From Agreia pratensis (GTDB lineage Bacteria; Actinomycetota; Actinomycetes; Actinomycetales; Microbacteriaceae): a stretch of 64,000 bases of DNA. The DNA is taken from assembly GCF_900177685.1 (NCBI RefSeq), contig NZ_FXAY01000001.1, positions 1,054,001 to 1,118,000 of the forward strand, read 5' to 3'. A program made the position numbers and the translations under genes. The notes under the pieces were generated by a model. That model ran no database searches, was not told the origin of the DNA, and saw nothing but the letters and a program-made list of their open reading frames with translations. This document shows, one piece after another, positions 2-5,422 of the stretch (position 1 is its first letter; every line of letters begins with the position of its first letter).

Positions 2-781
2 ACGGGTGGCCTCAACTCGACGATCGCGTCGATCGGACTGAACACCCGCGAGGCGACCAGCTGGTGGGGAACAGCCCAGGCCTACGTCGACGTCTTCACC
101 GACCCGCGCTTCACCCGCGACCTCGGCGTGACGATCGGCGTGACCGTGGTCTCGACGCTCATCGTGCTGGCGCTGGCCTTGGGTATCGCCCTCAACCTGC
201 GCCTGCGCGGCGGACGACTCGCGAGTGTCTTCGCCGGCCTGGCGGTGGTGCCCCTCTTCATCCCCGTGGTGATCGCGTCGTGGGCCATCCTGACCTTCTA
301 CTCGGGCGACGGATTCGTGCGCACGGTCTTCGCCCTCGTGGGTCTGACCGGACCGACCTGGGGGTACACGACCGTGGCCGTGGTCATCGGCTCGGTGTGG
401 ACGAGCCTGCCGTTCGCCACGCTCATGGCCATCTCGGGGGTGCAGTCGATTCCCGACGCCATGATCGAGGCCGCTAAGGATGCCGGTGCCTCGTCGTTCT
501 CGATCGTCACGCGGATTCTCGTTCCCCTCAGCGCGATCCCCCTCGTGATCGCCGCCACCTTCACCGCCATCGGAGTGCTCGGCTCGTTCACCGTTCCGTA
601 CTTCACCGGCCCGAACGCGCCGAGCATGCTCGGCGTCGACATCTCGAAGTACTTCCAGGCGTTCAACCATCCGCAGCAGGCGATCGTGATGGCCGTCGTG
701 GTCTTCGTGCTCGCATCCGGAATCGCGTTCTTCTACGTGTGGGCGAACTTCCGATCGGCAAAGAAAGAAGGTCGGGTCTGA
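2..781 (+). CDS. ABC importer permease (5' end outside window)
   Basis: Inner-membrane permease of a binding-protein-dependent ABC importer. The frame is open from the first bases of the window, so the N-terminus is missing; 259 residues are visible. Hydrophobic helices alternate with a cytoplasmic EAA-type loop (MIEAAKDAGASSFSIVTRIL) that contacts the ATPase. The stop overlaps the next permease start (ATGA at 781). Together with the two following genes it resembles the 2+1 arrangement of the spermidine/phosphonate/iron-type importers. The substrate-binding protein is probably just upstream, out of view. The substrate is not deducible from this gene; the downstream GDPD-phosphatase suggests a phosphodiester. 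Confidence 0.85.
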   Translation, partial: TGGLNSTIASIGLNTREATSWWGTAQAYVDVFTDPRFTRDLGVTIGVTVVSTLIVLALALGIALNLRLRGGRLASVFAGLAVVPLFIPVVIASWAILTFYSGDGFVRTVFALVGLTGPTWGYTTVAVVIGSVWTSLPFATLMAISGVQSIPDAMIEAAKDAGASSFSIVTRILVPLSAIPLVIAATFTAIGVLGSFTVPYFTGPNAPSMLGVDISKYFQAFNHPQQAIVMAVVVFVLASGIAFFYVWANFRSAKKEGRV

Positions 782-1596
782 TGCGCACACGCATGCTCTC
801 TCGCGGCGTCGTCACGGGTGCCCTGTTCGTCGTGGTGGCCGTGTTCATCCTGGGCCCGCTGCTGTGGCTCGCGGCGCACGCCTTCGCCACCTCGTGGGAC
901 TACCCCAGCCTGCTTCCCGCCGGGCTCACGTTGGACTGGTGGGCGGTGGTCTTCAACGACGCCGAGCTCGGCGCCGCCGTGCGCAACTCGCTCTACTTCG
1001 CGCCGCTGACCGTGCTGGTCTCGGCGGTCGTGTGCCTGCCGGCGGCCTACGCCTTCTCGCGCTTCGAGTTCCCCGGTCGACGCATCTTCTTGGTCGGCCT
1101 GTTCGCCACGAACGCGTTTCCCAAGATGGGACTCTTCGTCTCGATGGCCTCGCTGTTCTACGGTCTGCACCTCATGAACACGATCGCCGGCGTCGTGATC
1201 GTGCAGCTCGTGGGCACCGTGGTCTTCATGACCTGGATCCCTGCGGCGGCCTTCAGCTCGGTGCCGCGCGCGCTCGAAGAGGCGGCCCGCGACGCCGGGG
1301 CCGGGCGCATCCGCACCTTCGTGCGCGTGACCCTGCCGCTCGCCCTGCCCGGCATCCTCGTGGCCATTCTCATGTCGTTTCTCGCAGCCTTCGATGAGGC
1401 CCAGGGCACCTATCTCGTAGGGGCGCCGGTCTACATGACCATGCCCACCGAGATGTACTCGCTCGTTCTGAACTACCCCAAACAGGTCGCCGCGGTCTTC
1501 GCGATCCTGCTCTCCGTTCCCTCCGTCGCCCTTCTGCTCTTCGCCCGCCGTTTCATCATGGGCGGGCGTCTGGCCGAGGGCTTCCAGATTCGTTAG
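781..1596 (+). CDS. ABC importer permease (second subunit)
   Basis: Second membrane subunit of the same importer, 271 residues with about six hydrophobic segments. The EAA loop (ALEEAARDAGAGRIRTFVRV) near residues 160-180 is the ATPase contact typical of the BPD_transp_1 fold. An in-frame ATG exists 42 nt earlier, but the start at 781 is preferred because it overlaps the stop of the first permease as ATGA, indicating translational coupling, and because the protein then begins with a normal Met-Arg-Thr-Arg followed by the first membrane helix. The ATPase gene starts 8 nt after the stop. Confidence 0.85.
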   Translation: MRTRMLSRGVVTGALFVVVAVFILGPLLWLAAHAFATSWDYPSLLPAGLTLDWWAVVFNDAELGAAVRNSLYFAPLTVLVSAVVCLPAAYAFSRFEFPGRRIFLVGLFATNAFPKMGLFVSMASLFYGLHLMNTIAGVVIVQLVGTVVFMTWIPAAAFSSVPRALEEAARDAGAGRIRTFVRVTLPLALPGILVAILMSFLAAFDEAQGTYLVGAPVYMTMPTEMYSLVLNYPKQVAAVFAILLSVPSVALLLFARRFIMGGRLAEGFQIR

Positions 1597-1604
1597 GCAC
1601 CACC

Positions 1605-2750
1605 ATGACAACACCCACCAAGACCGACGCCAGATCGGGACTCACGGTCACCGCGCTCACGAAGGTGCTGAGCAACCGCACGATCGTCGAGAACTTCGAG
1701 CTCGACGTGGCCGCGGGCGAGCTCGTCGCCCTGCTCGGCCCCTCTGGATGCGGCAAGACCACGACGCTGCGCATGATGGCCGGCTTTCTGCAGCCCGACA
1801 CCGGCTCGGTCAGCATCGGCGGCATCGACGTCACCGACAAGGGGCCAGACAAGAGGCCAAGCGCCATGGTCTTTCAGAACTACGCGCTCTGGCCGCACCT
1901 CACGGTATTCAAGAACGTGGCGTTTCCCCTCTCTATCAAGCGCGTTCCCCGCGCCGAGATCACCGAGCGGGTGATGGCGGCCCTCGAAACGGTGAACCTC
2001 GCCCACCACGCCCACTCCCGCCCCGCACACATCTCGGGAGGCGAGCAGCAGCGCGCCGCTCTCGCACGCGCGATCGTGCAGCGCCCCGACCTGCTGCTGC
2101 TCGACGAGCCCCTGTCGAACCTCGACGCCAAGCTCCGAGTCAAGGTACGCGAGGAGATCCGCGACATTCAGCAGCGCCTCGGCATCACCACCGTCATGGT
2201 CACGCACGACCAAGACGAAGCGATGGCCATCTCCGACCGCGTCGCCGTGATGAACGCCGGGCGCATCGAGCAGGTGTCGACGCCGACCGAGCTCTACGCC
2301 AACCCGCGCACCCTGTTCGTGGCCTCGTTCATCGGCAGCATGAATGTGCTGCCCGCGCCGACCCTGTTCGAGAGCGCGAGCTTGAGCCACGTGCCGAACG
2401 CTGCGCCGGATGCCGCGGCCGACACGTCGAGTTCCGGCACGTCGACAGACGACCCGCCCGCCGAGGCCTGGGCCGTGCGCCCCGAAGACGTGCTCTTCGA
2501 ACCAGGTTCGGGCGCGCGCCGTGCCGGCGCAACACCCGTCGAGGTACGTCGGGTGCTTCCCCATGGACACTTCTCCGAGCTCGTCCTCAACGCGGGCGGC
2601 GCCGAGGTGCGCTCGGTCGCGGGAGGAGTTCCTCCCGCTGTGGGTGACCACGGAACGGTGACTCTGAACAACGTGCGGCACTACGTCGACGGCGTGCTCG
2701 TCGACGGCCGCGCCCGCACGGCGCGTGTGCTGGCAGGGGTGAAGGCGTGA
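1605..2750 (+). CDS. ABC importer ATP-binding protein
   Basis: Cytoplasmic ATPase that energises the two preceding permeases. Walker A GPSGCGKTT is at residues 45-53, signature SGGEQQR at about 144-150, Walker B LLLLDEP at 163-169, and the switch His follows in VTHDQDEAM. A C-terminal regulatory region (about 240-381) has the beta-rich TOBE-like character of the MalK/PotA/UgpC group. The length of 381 residues is normal for that group, whose members import sugars, polyamines, phosphonates or glycerophosphodiesters. The last codons overlap the start of the GDPD-phosphatase fusion (GTGA at 2747), so that enzyme is co-translated with the importer. Confidence 0.88.
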   Translation: MTTPTKTDARSGLTVTALTKVLSNRTIVENFELDVAAGELVALLGPSGCGKTTTLRMMAGFLQPDTGSVSIGGIDVTDKGPDKRPSAMVFQNYALWPHLTVFKNVAFPLSIKRVPRAEITERVMAALETVNLAHHAHSRPAHISGGEQQRAALARAIVQRPDLLLLDEPLSNLDAKLRVKVREEIRDIQQRLGITTVMVTHDQDEAMAISDRVAVMNAGRIEQVSTPTELYANPRTLFVASFIGSMNVLPAPTLFESASLSHVPNAAPDAAADTSSSGTSTDDPPAEAWAVRPEDVLFEPGSGARRAGATPVEVRRVLPHGHFSELVLNAGGAEVRSVAGGVPPAVGDHGTVTLNNVRHYVDGVLVDGRARTARVLAGVKA

Positions 2751-4270
2751 CCGCGATCGTCGCCCACCGCGGCGATTCCTCGGTTCACCGCGAGAACACC
2801 CTCGAGGCGATCCGCTCTGCGATCGCGGCCGGCGCCGACACCATCGAGATCGACGTGCGGCTTACGGGCGACGGGGAGGTCGTGCTGCTGCACGACGCCA
2901 CCCTGCAGCGGCTCTGGGGCGTCGACGAACACCTCGCCAACCTGACCCTGGCCGAGGTCGAGAAGCTGGGCGGGGGCGAGCTGCGCATCCCGTTGCTGCG
3001 CGATGTGCTGAACCTGATGCACGACGCCGCCCCCCTCCTGCTCATCGACATGGACTCCCCAGAACCCGCAGCCGCCGCACACCGCGTCGTCGCGGCATCC
3101 GGATCGTCGGTAAGAGTTGCCTGGTGCGGCCACATCGAGGCGATGAGAGTGATCCGTCGACGCGACGCGGCAGCCGAGATCTGGATGCCGTGGGCCGAGG
3201 CGAGTGCGCCCAACGCCCTGGATCTCGCCGAGCTGCGGCCCGCCGTCGTGAACCTGCCCCACGTCTTCGTGGGGCGCGAACTCGTCGCGGCCATCCATTC
3301 GCTCGGCGTGCGCGTCTCGTGCTGGACAGTGGACGACGCCGAGCAGATGGCGTGGCTCCTCGCCATCGGAGTCGATTCGATCACGAGCAACCGGCTCGCC
3401 CTCGCGATGTGTCTTCGCGACAACGACGGGGCGGCGACCGTGCAGATGATTCCTCGCGCCCGGCTCATTGCCCGCGAACTTGCGAGCTGGGCCGTCGAAT
3501 ACGTTCGCAAGCACCACGTCACCTCTGTGTCGACCAAGGCCAACCCCGCCGACCATGTCACCGAGATCGACCTCGCCATCGAGCGCGTCGTGCGCGGGGT
3601 CATCGGCGCCCAGTTCGCCGACCACTGCTTCGTCGGCGAGGAGTTCGGCGGCGAGGCACAAGCGGACAGGCCGTGCTGGTACCTCGACCCCGTCGACGGC
3701 ACAGCCAACCTCGCCAACGGCATGCCGTGGACGAGCTTCTCGCTCGCCCTGGTCATCAACGGCGCACCGGTCGTCGGCGTCGTCGCCGATCCCTGGCGCG
3801 GTGTGATCGTCGAAGCCGAGGCCGGCGGCGGCGCCTGGTCCAACGGCATCCGCCTGTGCCTCGACAAGGCGGATGCCGAGGCTGTGTCGGCGCCCGCGAT
3901 CGGCCCGGCTCCCGATCCCCTACGCGGCGCGATGGTCAGCACCGAACTCGCGGCGCACGCGGCGTGGCCGGGAATGATTCCGATGCTCGAGGCGCTGTCG
4001 CAGCGCTACTGCACGATGCGCATCATGGGATCGGGCACGCTGACCGTCGCCGGCATCGCTCTCGGCCATGGCGTCGGCGCGGTCATCGGCCGCTTCGGGC
4101 CTGTCGACCACCTTGCCGCCGTGCTCATCGTGCGTGAAGCGGGCGGCGTCGTGCTCGACGAGAACGGCGACGACACGCTGTTCCCTGCCAGCGGCGGCGT
4201 GCTCGCGGCGGCGAACCGTCAGACAGCCGAGCAGCTTCATACGCTGTGGAGAGAGGCCGTTGCTCGGTAA
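2747..4270 (+). CDS. Fusion: glycerophosphodiester phosphodiesterase + inositol-monophosphatase-like domain
   Basis: 507-residue two-domain enzyme, probably cytoplasmic since no signal peptide is seen. Residues 1 to about 220 form a GDPD TIM barrel with the active-site set intact: H7-R8, E16-N17-T18, E34, D36 and H49. Residues about 235-507 are an IMPase/FIG-fold phosphatase with GEE (297-299), DPVDGT (314-319) and the third metal-site Asp (D454, in GPVDHLAA). Family knowledge: GDPD splits glycerophosphodiesters; IMPase removes phosphate from inositol phosphate or similar sugars. Inference: import of a glycerophosphodiester such as glycerophosphoinositol, cleavage, then dephosphorylation in one polypeptide. 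The start overlaps the ATPase gene (GTGA). Domain calls are firm; the substrate is inferred. Confidence 0.85.
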   Translation: MTAIVAHRGDSSVHRENTLEAIRSAIAAGADTIEIDVRLTGDGEVVLLHDATLQRLWGVDEHLANLTLAEVEKLGGGELRIPLLRDVLNLMHDAAPLLLIDMDSPEPAAAAHRVVAASGSSVRVAWCGHIEAMRVIRRRDAAAEIWMPWAEASAPNALDLAELRPAVVNLPHVFVGRELVAAIHSLGVRVSCWTVDDAEQMAWLLAIGVDSITSNRLALAMCLRDNDGAATVQMIPRARLIARELASWAVEYVRKHHVTSVSTKANPADHVTEIDLAIERVVRGVIGAQFADHCFVGEEFGGEAQADRPCWYLDPVDGTANLANGMPWTSFSLALVINGAPVVGVVADPWRGVIVEAEAGGGAWSNGIRLCLDKADAEAVSAPAIGPAPDPLRGAMVSTELAAHAAWPGMIPMLEALSQRYCTMRIMGSGTLTVAGIALGHGVGAVIGRFGPVDHLAAVLIVREAGGVVLDENGDDTLFPASGGVLAAANRQTAEQLHTLWREAVAR

Positions 4271-4306
4271 AGTTCGATGCAGCCGTCACCCGCACAAAGG
4301 AGTTCC

Positions 4307-5422
4307 ATGCTGATCGAAGCCGACCTCGACGCCGTTCGTCGCCACGAGATCGCGAGCCGGGAGCCCGCCGACTTCGACGCCTATTGGCGGGCAACGTTGG
4401 CAGACGTGAGCGACGTTCCCCTCGACGTGCGGGTCGAGCGGGTCGAGAGCGTGCTCAGTGTCATCGACGTGTTCGATGTCACCTTCCGCGGCGCCGACGG
4501 CACCGATGTGAGGGCGTGGCTGCGTGTGCCTGCCGGCACCACGGGCGCCCTGCCCACGGTGGTCACCTATGTCGGCTACGGCGGCGGGCGGGGCAAGCCC
4601 GAGGAGTCGCTCACCTGGGCGGCGTCCGGCTTCGCGCATCTGCACATGGATACGCGCGGCCAGGGCGCCTCATGGAGCGTCGGCGACACACCGGATGTCG
4701 GCCCCGGCGGCCCGCAGATTCCCGGGGTGATGACCAAGGGCATCCAGAGCCGCGACGACTACTACTACCGCCGGCTGTTCATCGATGCGGTGCGCGCCGT
4801 CGACGCGGCCAAGCAGCTACCGCAGGTAGACGCGACGCGCATCGCCGTCGCCGGCGGAAGCCAGGGCGGTGGCCTTGCGCTTGCGGTGGCCGGGCTGCGT
4901 GACGACCTCGCCGCGGTCGTGGCGTTCGTGCCGTTTCTCTGCGACTTCGGGCGGGCCACACTGATCACCGATGCGTATCCGTACCACGAGATCATCGACT
5001 ACCTGCGGATCCATCGCGACCAGGCGGCATCCGTCTACGAGGTGCTCGGCAACTTCGACGCCGTGAACCACGCGCGTCGGGCCACGGCGCCGGCGCACTT
5101 CTCGGTCGCGTTGATGGATGCGACGTGCCCGGCCTCCACTGTCTACGCCGCGTTCAACGCGTACGCCGCAGAGAAGGAGATCACCGAGTGGGCGTTCAAC
5201 GGCCACGAGGGCGGCGGCATCGAAGACGAGACGCAGGCGATCGCGTTCCTGAAGAGGCACCTCGGGGAGCAGCGAGGTCTCGATACGGCCGCTTCGCGGC
5301 CTACTCGACCAGCGCGGATCTGCGCCGGTCGAGTAGCCGCGCGAGGAACGAGCCGGCGTATCGAGACCACCACTACTATCGGCTCATGGTGCCCTTCGAG
5401 AACCTCGCTGCATTCGCTCTAG
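4307..5422 (+). CDS. Acetyl-xylan esterase / cephalosporin-C deacetylase family hydrolase
   Basis: Alpha/beta hydrolase of the AXE1/carbohydrate-esterase-7 type, which removes acetyl groups from xylo-oligosaccharides and similar substrates in the cytoplasm. The nucleophile Ser185 lies in GGSQGG, the acid is Asp271 (LMDAT) and the base His300 (NGHEGG). The start at 4307 has a strong AAAGGAG 4 nt upstream; an earlier in-frame ATG at 4277 has none. The family normally ends near residue 322. Here about 49 further residues (Arg-rich, low complexity) are read from a palindromic repeat (5276-5368), and the stop falls 37 nt inside the next gene. It lies 36 nt behind the GDPD fusion and is probably co-transcribed. 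Confidence 0.85.
   Translation: MLIEADLDAVRRHEIASREPADFDAYWRATLADVSDVPLDVRVERVESVLSVIDVFDVTFRGADGTDVRAWLRVPAGTTGALPTVVTYVGYGGGRGKPEESLTWAASGFAHLHMDTRGQGASWSVGDTPDVGPGGPQIPGVMTKGIQSRDDYYYRRLFIDAVRAVDAAKQLPQVDATRIAVAGGSQGGGLALAVAGLRDDLAAVVAFVPFLCDFGRATLITDAYPYHEIIDYLRIHRDQAASVYEVLGNFDAVNHARRATAPAHFSVALMDATCPASTVYAAFNAYAAEKEITEWAFNGHEGGGIEDETQAIAFLKRHLGEQRGLDTAASRPTRPARICAGRVAARGTSRRIETTTTIGSWCPSRTSLHSL
5276..5368. repeat. Palindromic repeat, copy A
   Basis: 93-bp imperfect inverted element. It opens with GGTCTCGATACGGCCGC, has an inner stem from GGCCTACTCGACCAGCG against CGCCGGTCGAGTAGCC, and closes with GGCGTATCGAGACC, the reverse complement of its opening. Near-identical copy B is at 6024-6115; part-copies are at 19772-19810 and 44992-45076. 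Copy A lies inside the 3' end of the esterase frame and just before the LysE gene. Confidence 0.85.

Follow-up and report, generated by a model that had tools for sequence, protein, structure and literature searches.

A fused GDPD-inositol monophosphatase encoded beside an ABC importer in Agreia pratensis: a candidate operon for scavenging an inositol phosphodiester

Introduction

What would an ABC importer bring into the cell if the gene overlapping its ATPase gene encodes a glycerophosphodiester phosphodiesterase (GDPD) and an inositol monophosphatase (IMPase) fused in one protein? This question is raised by the first genes of a 64,000-nucleotide stretch of Agreia pratensis DNA (contig NZ_FXAY01000001.1, positions 1,054,001 to 1,118,000), the whole of which is called the window here. 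A sequence-only reading had proposed that the imported compound may be glycerophosphoinositol, namely phosphatidylinositol minus its fatty acids, and that the fused enzyme releases inositol from it. We found that the importer is complete, that the gene order recurs in other genera and that in seven other genomes the operon lies among genes of inositol catabolism. From these data we lean towards a scavenging operon that imports an inositol phosphodiester and cuts it twice.

The operon and its fused enzyme

The first base of the window falls inside the operon, and the upstream genes were read in L009, an 18-kb locus around the operon that extends 12 kb upstream (window base n is L009 base n + 12000). 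The gene of the first permease starts at L009 11831, 170 bases 5' of window base 1. A binding protein, which the sequence-only reading had left to be looked for, is encoded just upstream of it, and all genes from the binding protein to the fusion are on the plus strand (Table 1). The importer beside the fusion is complete, consisting of a binding protein, two permeases and one ATPase. The gene junctions overlap or nearly so: the ATG of permease 2 at 781, within a longest frame from 739, overlaps the stop codon of permease 1 (TGATG at 779-783), and the GTG start of the fusion at 2747 shares bases with the stop codon of the ATPase gene (2748-2750), in agreement with the translational coupling claimed earlier.

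The 507-residue protein had been described as two complete catalytic domains, and the Pfam search gave both far over their curated cut-offs, GDPD (PF03009) with E 1.4e-35 and 124 bits against 23.6, and Inositol_P (PF00459) with E 3.3e-41 and 142 bits against 27. The catalytic residues listed at that time also hold their positions in an alignment of this protein with 11 others (43-80% identity to it). E34, D36, H49, G297, E298, E299, D314, D317, G318, T319 and D454 are invariant in the 12 fusions and H7 is nearly so. We take H7 and H49 to be the catalytic His pair and E34 and D36 to be the acidic metal ligands of GDPDs; the metal ligands of the IMPase half (GEE at 297-299, DPVDGT at 314-319 and D454) are intact. 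In the AlphaFold2 model, the fusion folds confidently into two domains (mean predicted local distance difference test score 87.6), and its best PDB matches are IMPases (2hhm, E 2.4e-20) and the GDPD of T. tengcongensis (2pz0, E 3.5e-18). On the other hand, the inositol-1-monophosphatase equivalog NF008027 scores 82.2 bits in the fusion, below its cut-off of 332 bits. In one copy from genus g32 of the Curtobacterium group (L074), the catalytic H7 is replaced by Arg, so this copy may be decaying or changed.

Conservation of the operon

The fusion was found in 37 distinct genomes, 23 of the window's family and 14 of a family designated f33. It is present in full in 5 of the 8 genomes of the window's genus. 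Among 299 genomes drawn from the window's family, 23 matched at E <= 1e-60 and 21 of these are full length, the exceptions being a fusion broken by a contig end (G181) and a GDPD alone (G247). A draw from the class gave 9/394 genomes at E <= 1e-50, eight with both domains and one with the GDPD only (G497), and the f33 draw, whose genomes are 0.9-2.2 Mb in size, gave 11/61.

The surroundings were read for 34 of the 37 genomes, that is, for all except the f33 genomes G683, G691 and G714. In 30 of the 34 (20/23 in the window's family and 10/11 in f33), the fusion follows the genes for the binding protein, the two permeases and the ATPase, and the pairing of fusion and importer, whose recurrence had been posed as a question, is accordingly a recurrent one. 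The misses are L071, L072 and L074 of genus g32, two other genomes of which do carry the importer before the fusion, and L088, whose contig of 4175 bases ends too soon. A scan of named genomes was based on short patterns and took the best 80 of at least 594 stretches, so it is no census; 45 loci (L091-L135) were reported. Among the matches listed, the importer and the fusion occur together in Cryobacterium flavum, Kribbella kalugense and Sinomonas albida, while Sinomonas sp. ASV486 has the fusion at a contig edge and one Curtobacterium has it without the importer. This recurrence of the same five-gene order in other genera is beyond chance.

Variants of the arrangement were also seen. Four Curtobacterium-group loci (L071, L072, L074 and L096) have the fused enzyme without this importer as a neighbor. 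In Leifsonia aquatica H1aii, the same operon carries the GDPD and the IMPase as two overlapping genes (L097 7718-9435). In the GDPD tree this Leifsonia gene is nested within the fusion clade and joined to G231 with support 97/89 (deeper forks are weak), an indication that the fusion was split secondarily. Streptomyces loci (L099-L123) showed the GDPD half only; aldehyde-dehydrogenase matches near them were generic and were not used.

Linkage to inositol catabolism

IolD is the ring-opening enzyme of inositol catabolism. Its gene shares a contig with the fusion, at a distance of 7.4-9.0 kb, in 6/14 f33 genomes (G680, G685, G694, G698, G709 and G717, three genera) and in 1/23 genomes of the window's family (G231), that is, in four genera. 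In these seven stretches (L178-L184, the last from G231), IolD, IolB and MmsA are over their cut-offs in L178, and IolC is so in L181 and L184. By homology, IolB is present in all seven, IolC in five and MmsA in L178 only. The nearest same-strand gene 5' of the binding protein is IolE-like in 6/7 loci, with an opposite-strand DUF6454 gene between the two in L180 and L181; in L184 a Gfo/Idh gene is nearest, followed by an IolE-like one, with an opposite-strand GntR gene between. The IolD gene of G231 is split over two frames, each below the cut-off (L184 9273-11735), by a natural frameshift or a sequencing error. This position of the operon within iol clusters favors an inositol phosphodiester, such as glycerophosphoinositol, as the cargo.

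The co-occurrence over whole genomes points in the same direction. IolD (TIGR04377) is over the cut-off in 22 of 28 genomes picked for bearing the fusion. At E <= 1e-120, the background is 108/299 in the draw from the window's family and 22/61 in the f33 draw. With relatedness ignored, IolD was found in 18/22 fusion-bearing genomes of the family draw (including the split gene of G231) versus 90/277 others (Fisher p 7e-6), and in 8/11 fusion-bearing genomes of the f33 draw versus 14/50 others (Fisher p 0.012). The adjacency of IolD is harder to explain away than this genome-wide co-occurrence. Two further markers were tried. The IolE profile was rejected, being over its cut-off in 1/299 genomes, with IolE-like genes in iol clusters scoring about 53-149 bits. 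Inositol-phosphate synthase (PF07994) was over the cut-off in 0/34, but the control, Corynebacterium glutamicum, a species that carries this gene, was silent too, so nothing follows.

The linked f33 loci carry additional genes. A mannosylglycerate-hydrolase (MGH1)-like glycoside hydrolase is present in 5/6 of them, by Pfam (PF22422) in L178 and L183 and by homology in the others, and L182 ends before that point. ROK-type kinases also occur in 5/6, with NCBIfam matches below cut-off. L183 has, in a row on one strand, a ROK-type kinase, the MGH1-like hydrolase, two IolE-like genes, the importer, the fusion and a second ROK-type kinase, and this row adjoins divergent IolB-like and IolD genes.

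Proposed function

On these grounds the ligand is probably, with some reservation, an inositol phosphodiester. The gene order, the domains, the metal ligands, the recurrence and the iol linkage in other genomes are observed, whereas we infer which compound is imported, on which side and in which order it is cut, that the LacI-type protein is the regulator and what becomes of inositol in the window's own species. A LacI-type protein would control the operon. Through the binding protein and its two-permease, one-ATPase importer the cell would take up a soluble inositol phosphodiester, of which glycerophosphoinositol or a glycosylated derivative is the likeliest. The GDPD half would turn it into glycerol plus inositol phosphate. 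Once the IMPase half had then taken off the phosphate, the overall products would be inositol, phosphate and glycerol. UgpQ-type GDPDs usually cut to glycerol-3-phosphate and the free alcohol. A cut on this usual side would free inositol without any phosphatase, and the presence of a fused phosphatase is therefore an argument for a cut on the opposite side, with inositol phosphate as the product.

Plain glycerophosphoinositol is a serious candidate, though we stop short of calling it probable. It is unlikely, yet worth keeping in view, that the natural ligand is a glycosylated glycerophosphoinositol, for example the deacylated headgroup of phosphatidylinositol mannosides. A gene set like that of L183 would then strip the sugar, cut the diester and remove the phosphate, and the sugar and inositol would enter catabolism. 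If so, small-genome bacteria, probably the abundant and streamlined actinobacteria of fresh water, would live partly on the inositol-lipid debris of others.

Several observations weigh against an inositol phosphodiester, or at least against the plain compound. The operon lies beside IolD in only 7 of the 37 fusion genomes, and in the other 30 IolD is elsewhere or was not found. No IolD over cut-off was found in the window's own genome or in G001, G002, G005 and G171, which makes inositol as a carbon source doubtful in the former; nor were IolB, IolC or IolD found in the 18 kb of L009. Within single genera the contrast is weak: in genus g1, the fusion genomes G000, G001, G002 and G005 are without IolD and G006 is with it, and of the fusion-free genomes G003 is without it and G004 with it. 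The IolE-like and Gfo/Idh (IolG-like) genes of the linked loci are below their model cut-offs, and the glycoside hydrolase and ROK-type kinases there suggest that the ligand of f33 may not be the plain compound. As for the enzyme, the metal ligands are intact and the substrate side departs from the textbook form, as judged from the alignment. GDPDs carry, as a rule, a Lys two residues past the third metal ligand, and members of the fusion clade have D, E, T or G at this position; the Lys is retained in AccF, in rhizobial GDPDs and in the other GDPDs of the window's genus, and it is lost also in a Streptomyces relative (L100). Several related IMPases carry a Glu that we take for E213 of human IMPase, a residue in contact with inositol; at this position the fusions carry Ile or Val (Ile447 here) and AccG carries Ser. 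Moreover, the Trp preceding the last IMPase metal ligand is Val453 in the window's fusion. The fold of the binding protein matches many ligand classes and gives its broad class only.

Known systems and alternative cargos

The closest working analogue is the acc operon of Agrobacterium Ti plasmids. The published account describes a repressor AccR, an importer AccA-E, a phosphodiesterase AccF and a phosphatase AccG, the last two being putative enzymes of agrocinopine catabolism, and names L-arabinose-2-phosphate released by AccF as the effector of AccR (PMC4526662). We read L051 as this operon from its gene order, its record having no acc names. Like the operon of the window, acc combines a regulator, an ABC importer and enzymes of the GDPD and IMPase families, so that a phosphodiester is imported and cut twice. 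In acc, however, AccF and AccG are separate enzymes, the importer (in L051) has an SBP_bac_5 protein and two ATPases instead of SBP_bac_8 and one ATPase, the regulator is of the DeoR type instead of the LacI type, and AccF has the GDPD Lys that the fusion clade lost. AccF and AccG also fall outside the fusion clade in the trees, their own places being unsure because of long branches. Membership in the agrocinopine acc system was therefore rejected.

In a looser relation to acc, the importer would carry a diester that links a sugar or polyol to a sugar phosphate. The GDPD half would free a sugar phosphate for dephosphorylation by the IMPase half, and the lineages with an inositol link would have changed their substrate. 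The occurrence of the same two kinds of enzyme next to an importer on plasmids of Agrobacterium speaks for it, as do the LacI-type regulator, a type common in sugar operons, the lack of IolD in 4/5 fusion-bearing genomes of the window's genus and the esterase that all five of them add. Against these stand the other class of the AccA-type importer, the trees and the inositol gene linkage in seven genomes, and we regard this relation as unlikely. A broad scavenger of glycerophosphodiesters and phosphate (glycerophosphoglycerol or teichoic-acid fragments), in which the IMPase half mainly dephosphorylates glycerol phosphate, would suit the substrates for which the GDPD family is named; it would leave the linkage to iol genes unexplained, the operon is adjoined by a LacI-type and not a phosphate-starvation regulator, and glycerol phosphate is usable without a phosphatase, so we consider it improbable. 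Glycerol kinase, over the cut-off in 28/28 fusion genomes but also in 10/14 controls, was discarded as uninformative about the substrate.

It is very improbable that the cargo is unrelated (2-aminoethylphosphonate, polyamine or iron) and the enzyme is in the operon by accident. The idea draws on the best NCBIfam names for the importer parts, PhnT2, PotB, PotC and PRK11622, and on the fold neighbors of the binding protein, which include ferric-binding proteins, polyamine receptors and STM0429. All four NCBIfam scores are, however, below their cut-offs, and the importer and the fusion are kept together across genera. The phosphonate, polyamine and iron names were rejected because the scores are below cut-off among the NCBIfam models listed; in particular, none of the equivalogs of 2-aminoethylphosphonate importers (PhnSTUV, PhnT2) among those listed is over its cut-off, the comparison for the ATPase covering the best 25 of 187 families. 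A GDPD and IMPase pair would also make little sense for iron or 2-aminoethylphosphonate.

Other known systems share parts of this arrangement. GDPD and IMPase genes lie beside an ABC importer in rhizobial operons, namely L049 (pAt2788b), L050 (pTiAF3.44), and L125 and L127 (Rhizobiales). The importers of L050, L125 and L127 are homologous to that of the window (46, 190 and 175 bits for the binding protein; 113, 208 and 205 bits for permease 2), whereas the two enzymes of the rhizobial operons are separate and outside the fusion clade. L049 and L050 have ROK-type regulators. The IMPase gene of L125 and L127 runs on the opposite strand and meets the GDPD gene tail to tail. Each of the three annotated plasmid-borne GDPD-IMPase operons read here has a Na/Pi cotransporter gene nearby (L049 8940-10583, L050 8676-10328 and L051 1-1208), whose product perhaps handles the released phosphate. 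The Ugp system with UgpQ also combines an ABC importer with a cytoplasmic GDPD and is not known to include a phosphatase; the Ugp models are below their cut-offs here (UgpA 25.5/335 bits, UgpE 27.6/297, UgpC 309.7/432). The AfuABC system is not known to include a GDPD, and none of the 50 best fold matches of the window's binding protein is named AfuA. AfuABC had been predicted to transport iron, but its cargo is reported to be cyclic hexose and heptose phosphates (PMC4546632).

The claim that no system of this form had been described thus held only in part. The same ingredients, with the two enzymes unfused, occur in the acc operon, and the logic of importing a phosphodiester and cutting it twice is already known, while the fusion, its importer class and the inositol linkage appear undescribed; in the open-licence literature, judged by titles and the beginnings of abstracts, we found neither a bacterial importer of glycerophosphoinositol nor a GDPD-IMPase fusion. 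As to scavenging of an inositol diester, the domains, the importer, their recurrence and the iol linkage of seven other genomes agree with the sequence-only reading, although no IolD over cut-off was found in the window's genome. The system is real, conserved and sensible, and its proposed chemistry is plausible and gains support from other genomes. The gene set is carried by soil, plant and, probably, freshwater bacteria. If an inositol phosphodiester is indeed the cargo, the fusion and the importer would be a marker set for inositol-lipid scavenging in soil, plant and water bacteria, one fused enzyme and one importer would suffice as a traceable gene set, and a name would be gained for a class of binding proteins now nearest to families of phosphonate, thiamine or iron binders.

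Regulator and neighboring genes

A strong LacI homologue adjoins the fusion operon in 17/23 loci of the window's family, and none was found in the f33 loci scanned; G231 has a GntR/UTRA regulator in place of LacI. A palindrome, CGCAACGTTGCG, lies between the regulator and the binding-protein gene (L009 10583-10594). The exact 12-mer occurs 5' of the operon in 5/5 fusion-bearing genomes of the genus (L009 and L054-L057; duplicates L001 and L091) and in none of the remaining loci among the 184 collected. It is a plausible candidate operator because it is confined to the region upstream of the operon in these five genomes. With up to two mismatches, it has four matches in the window, the number expected by chance, so no regulon could be drawn.

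Table 1. Coordinates of the operon, its domains and neighboring genes (window positions unless a locus is named)
Feature	Position	Strand	Basis or remark
LacI-family regulator	L009 9447 to about 10499	-	LacI and Peripla_BP_3 domains; divergent, outside the window
Binding protein, lipoprotein-type start	L009 10623-11834	+	SBP_bac_8, E 1.7e-29; outside the window
ABC importer permease 1	2-781 (whole open reading frame L009 11831-12781)	+	BPD_transp_1, E 2.6e-14
ABC importer permease 2	781-1596	+	BPD_transp_1, E 9.1e-11
ABC importer ATPase	1605-2750	+	Best NCBIfam TIGR03265, 344 bits, below cut-off 457.7
Fused GDPD-IMPase enzyme, 507 residues	2747-4270	+	Open reading frame, GTG start
GDPD domain, residues 7-217	2765-3397	+	Pfam PF03009
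Inositol_P domain, residues 245-503	3479-4255	+	Pfam PF00459
AXE1-family esterase, directly 3' of the fusion	4277-5422	+	Pfam
MGH1-like glycoside hydrolase	L183 9724-11010; L178 1191-2474; L179 4089-5390; L180 3039-4322; L181 16424-17707
DUF6454 genes	L180 10639-11490; L181 9256-10107; L084 13672-14562; L092 10494-11312; L094 10451-11401

A homologue of the AXE1-family esterase follows the fusion in 5/5 fusion-bearing genomes of the window's genus and in no other locus scanned, and the esterase is therefore accessory at most. For DUF6454 (PF20055), the literature search found no paper, and the window's genome gave no match, but the positive control of that search was equally silent. In f33, Cryobacterium and Sinomonas, three lineages far apart from one another, a DUF6454 gene adjoins the operon and may represent an additional step in its pathway.

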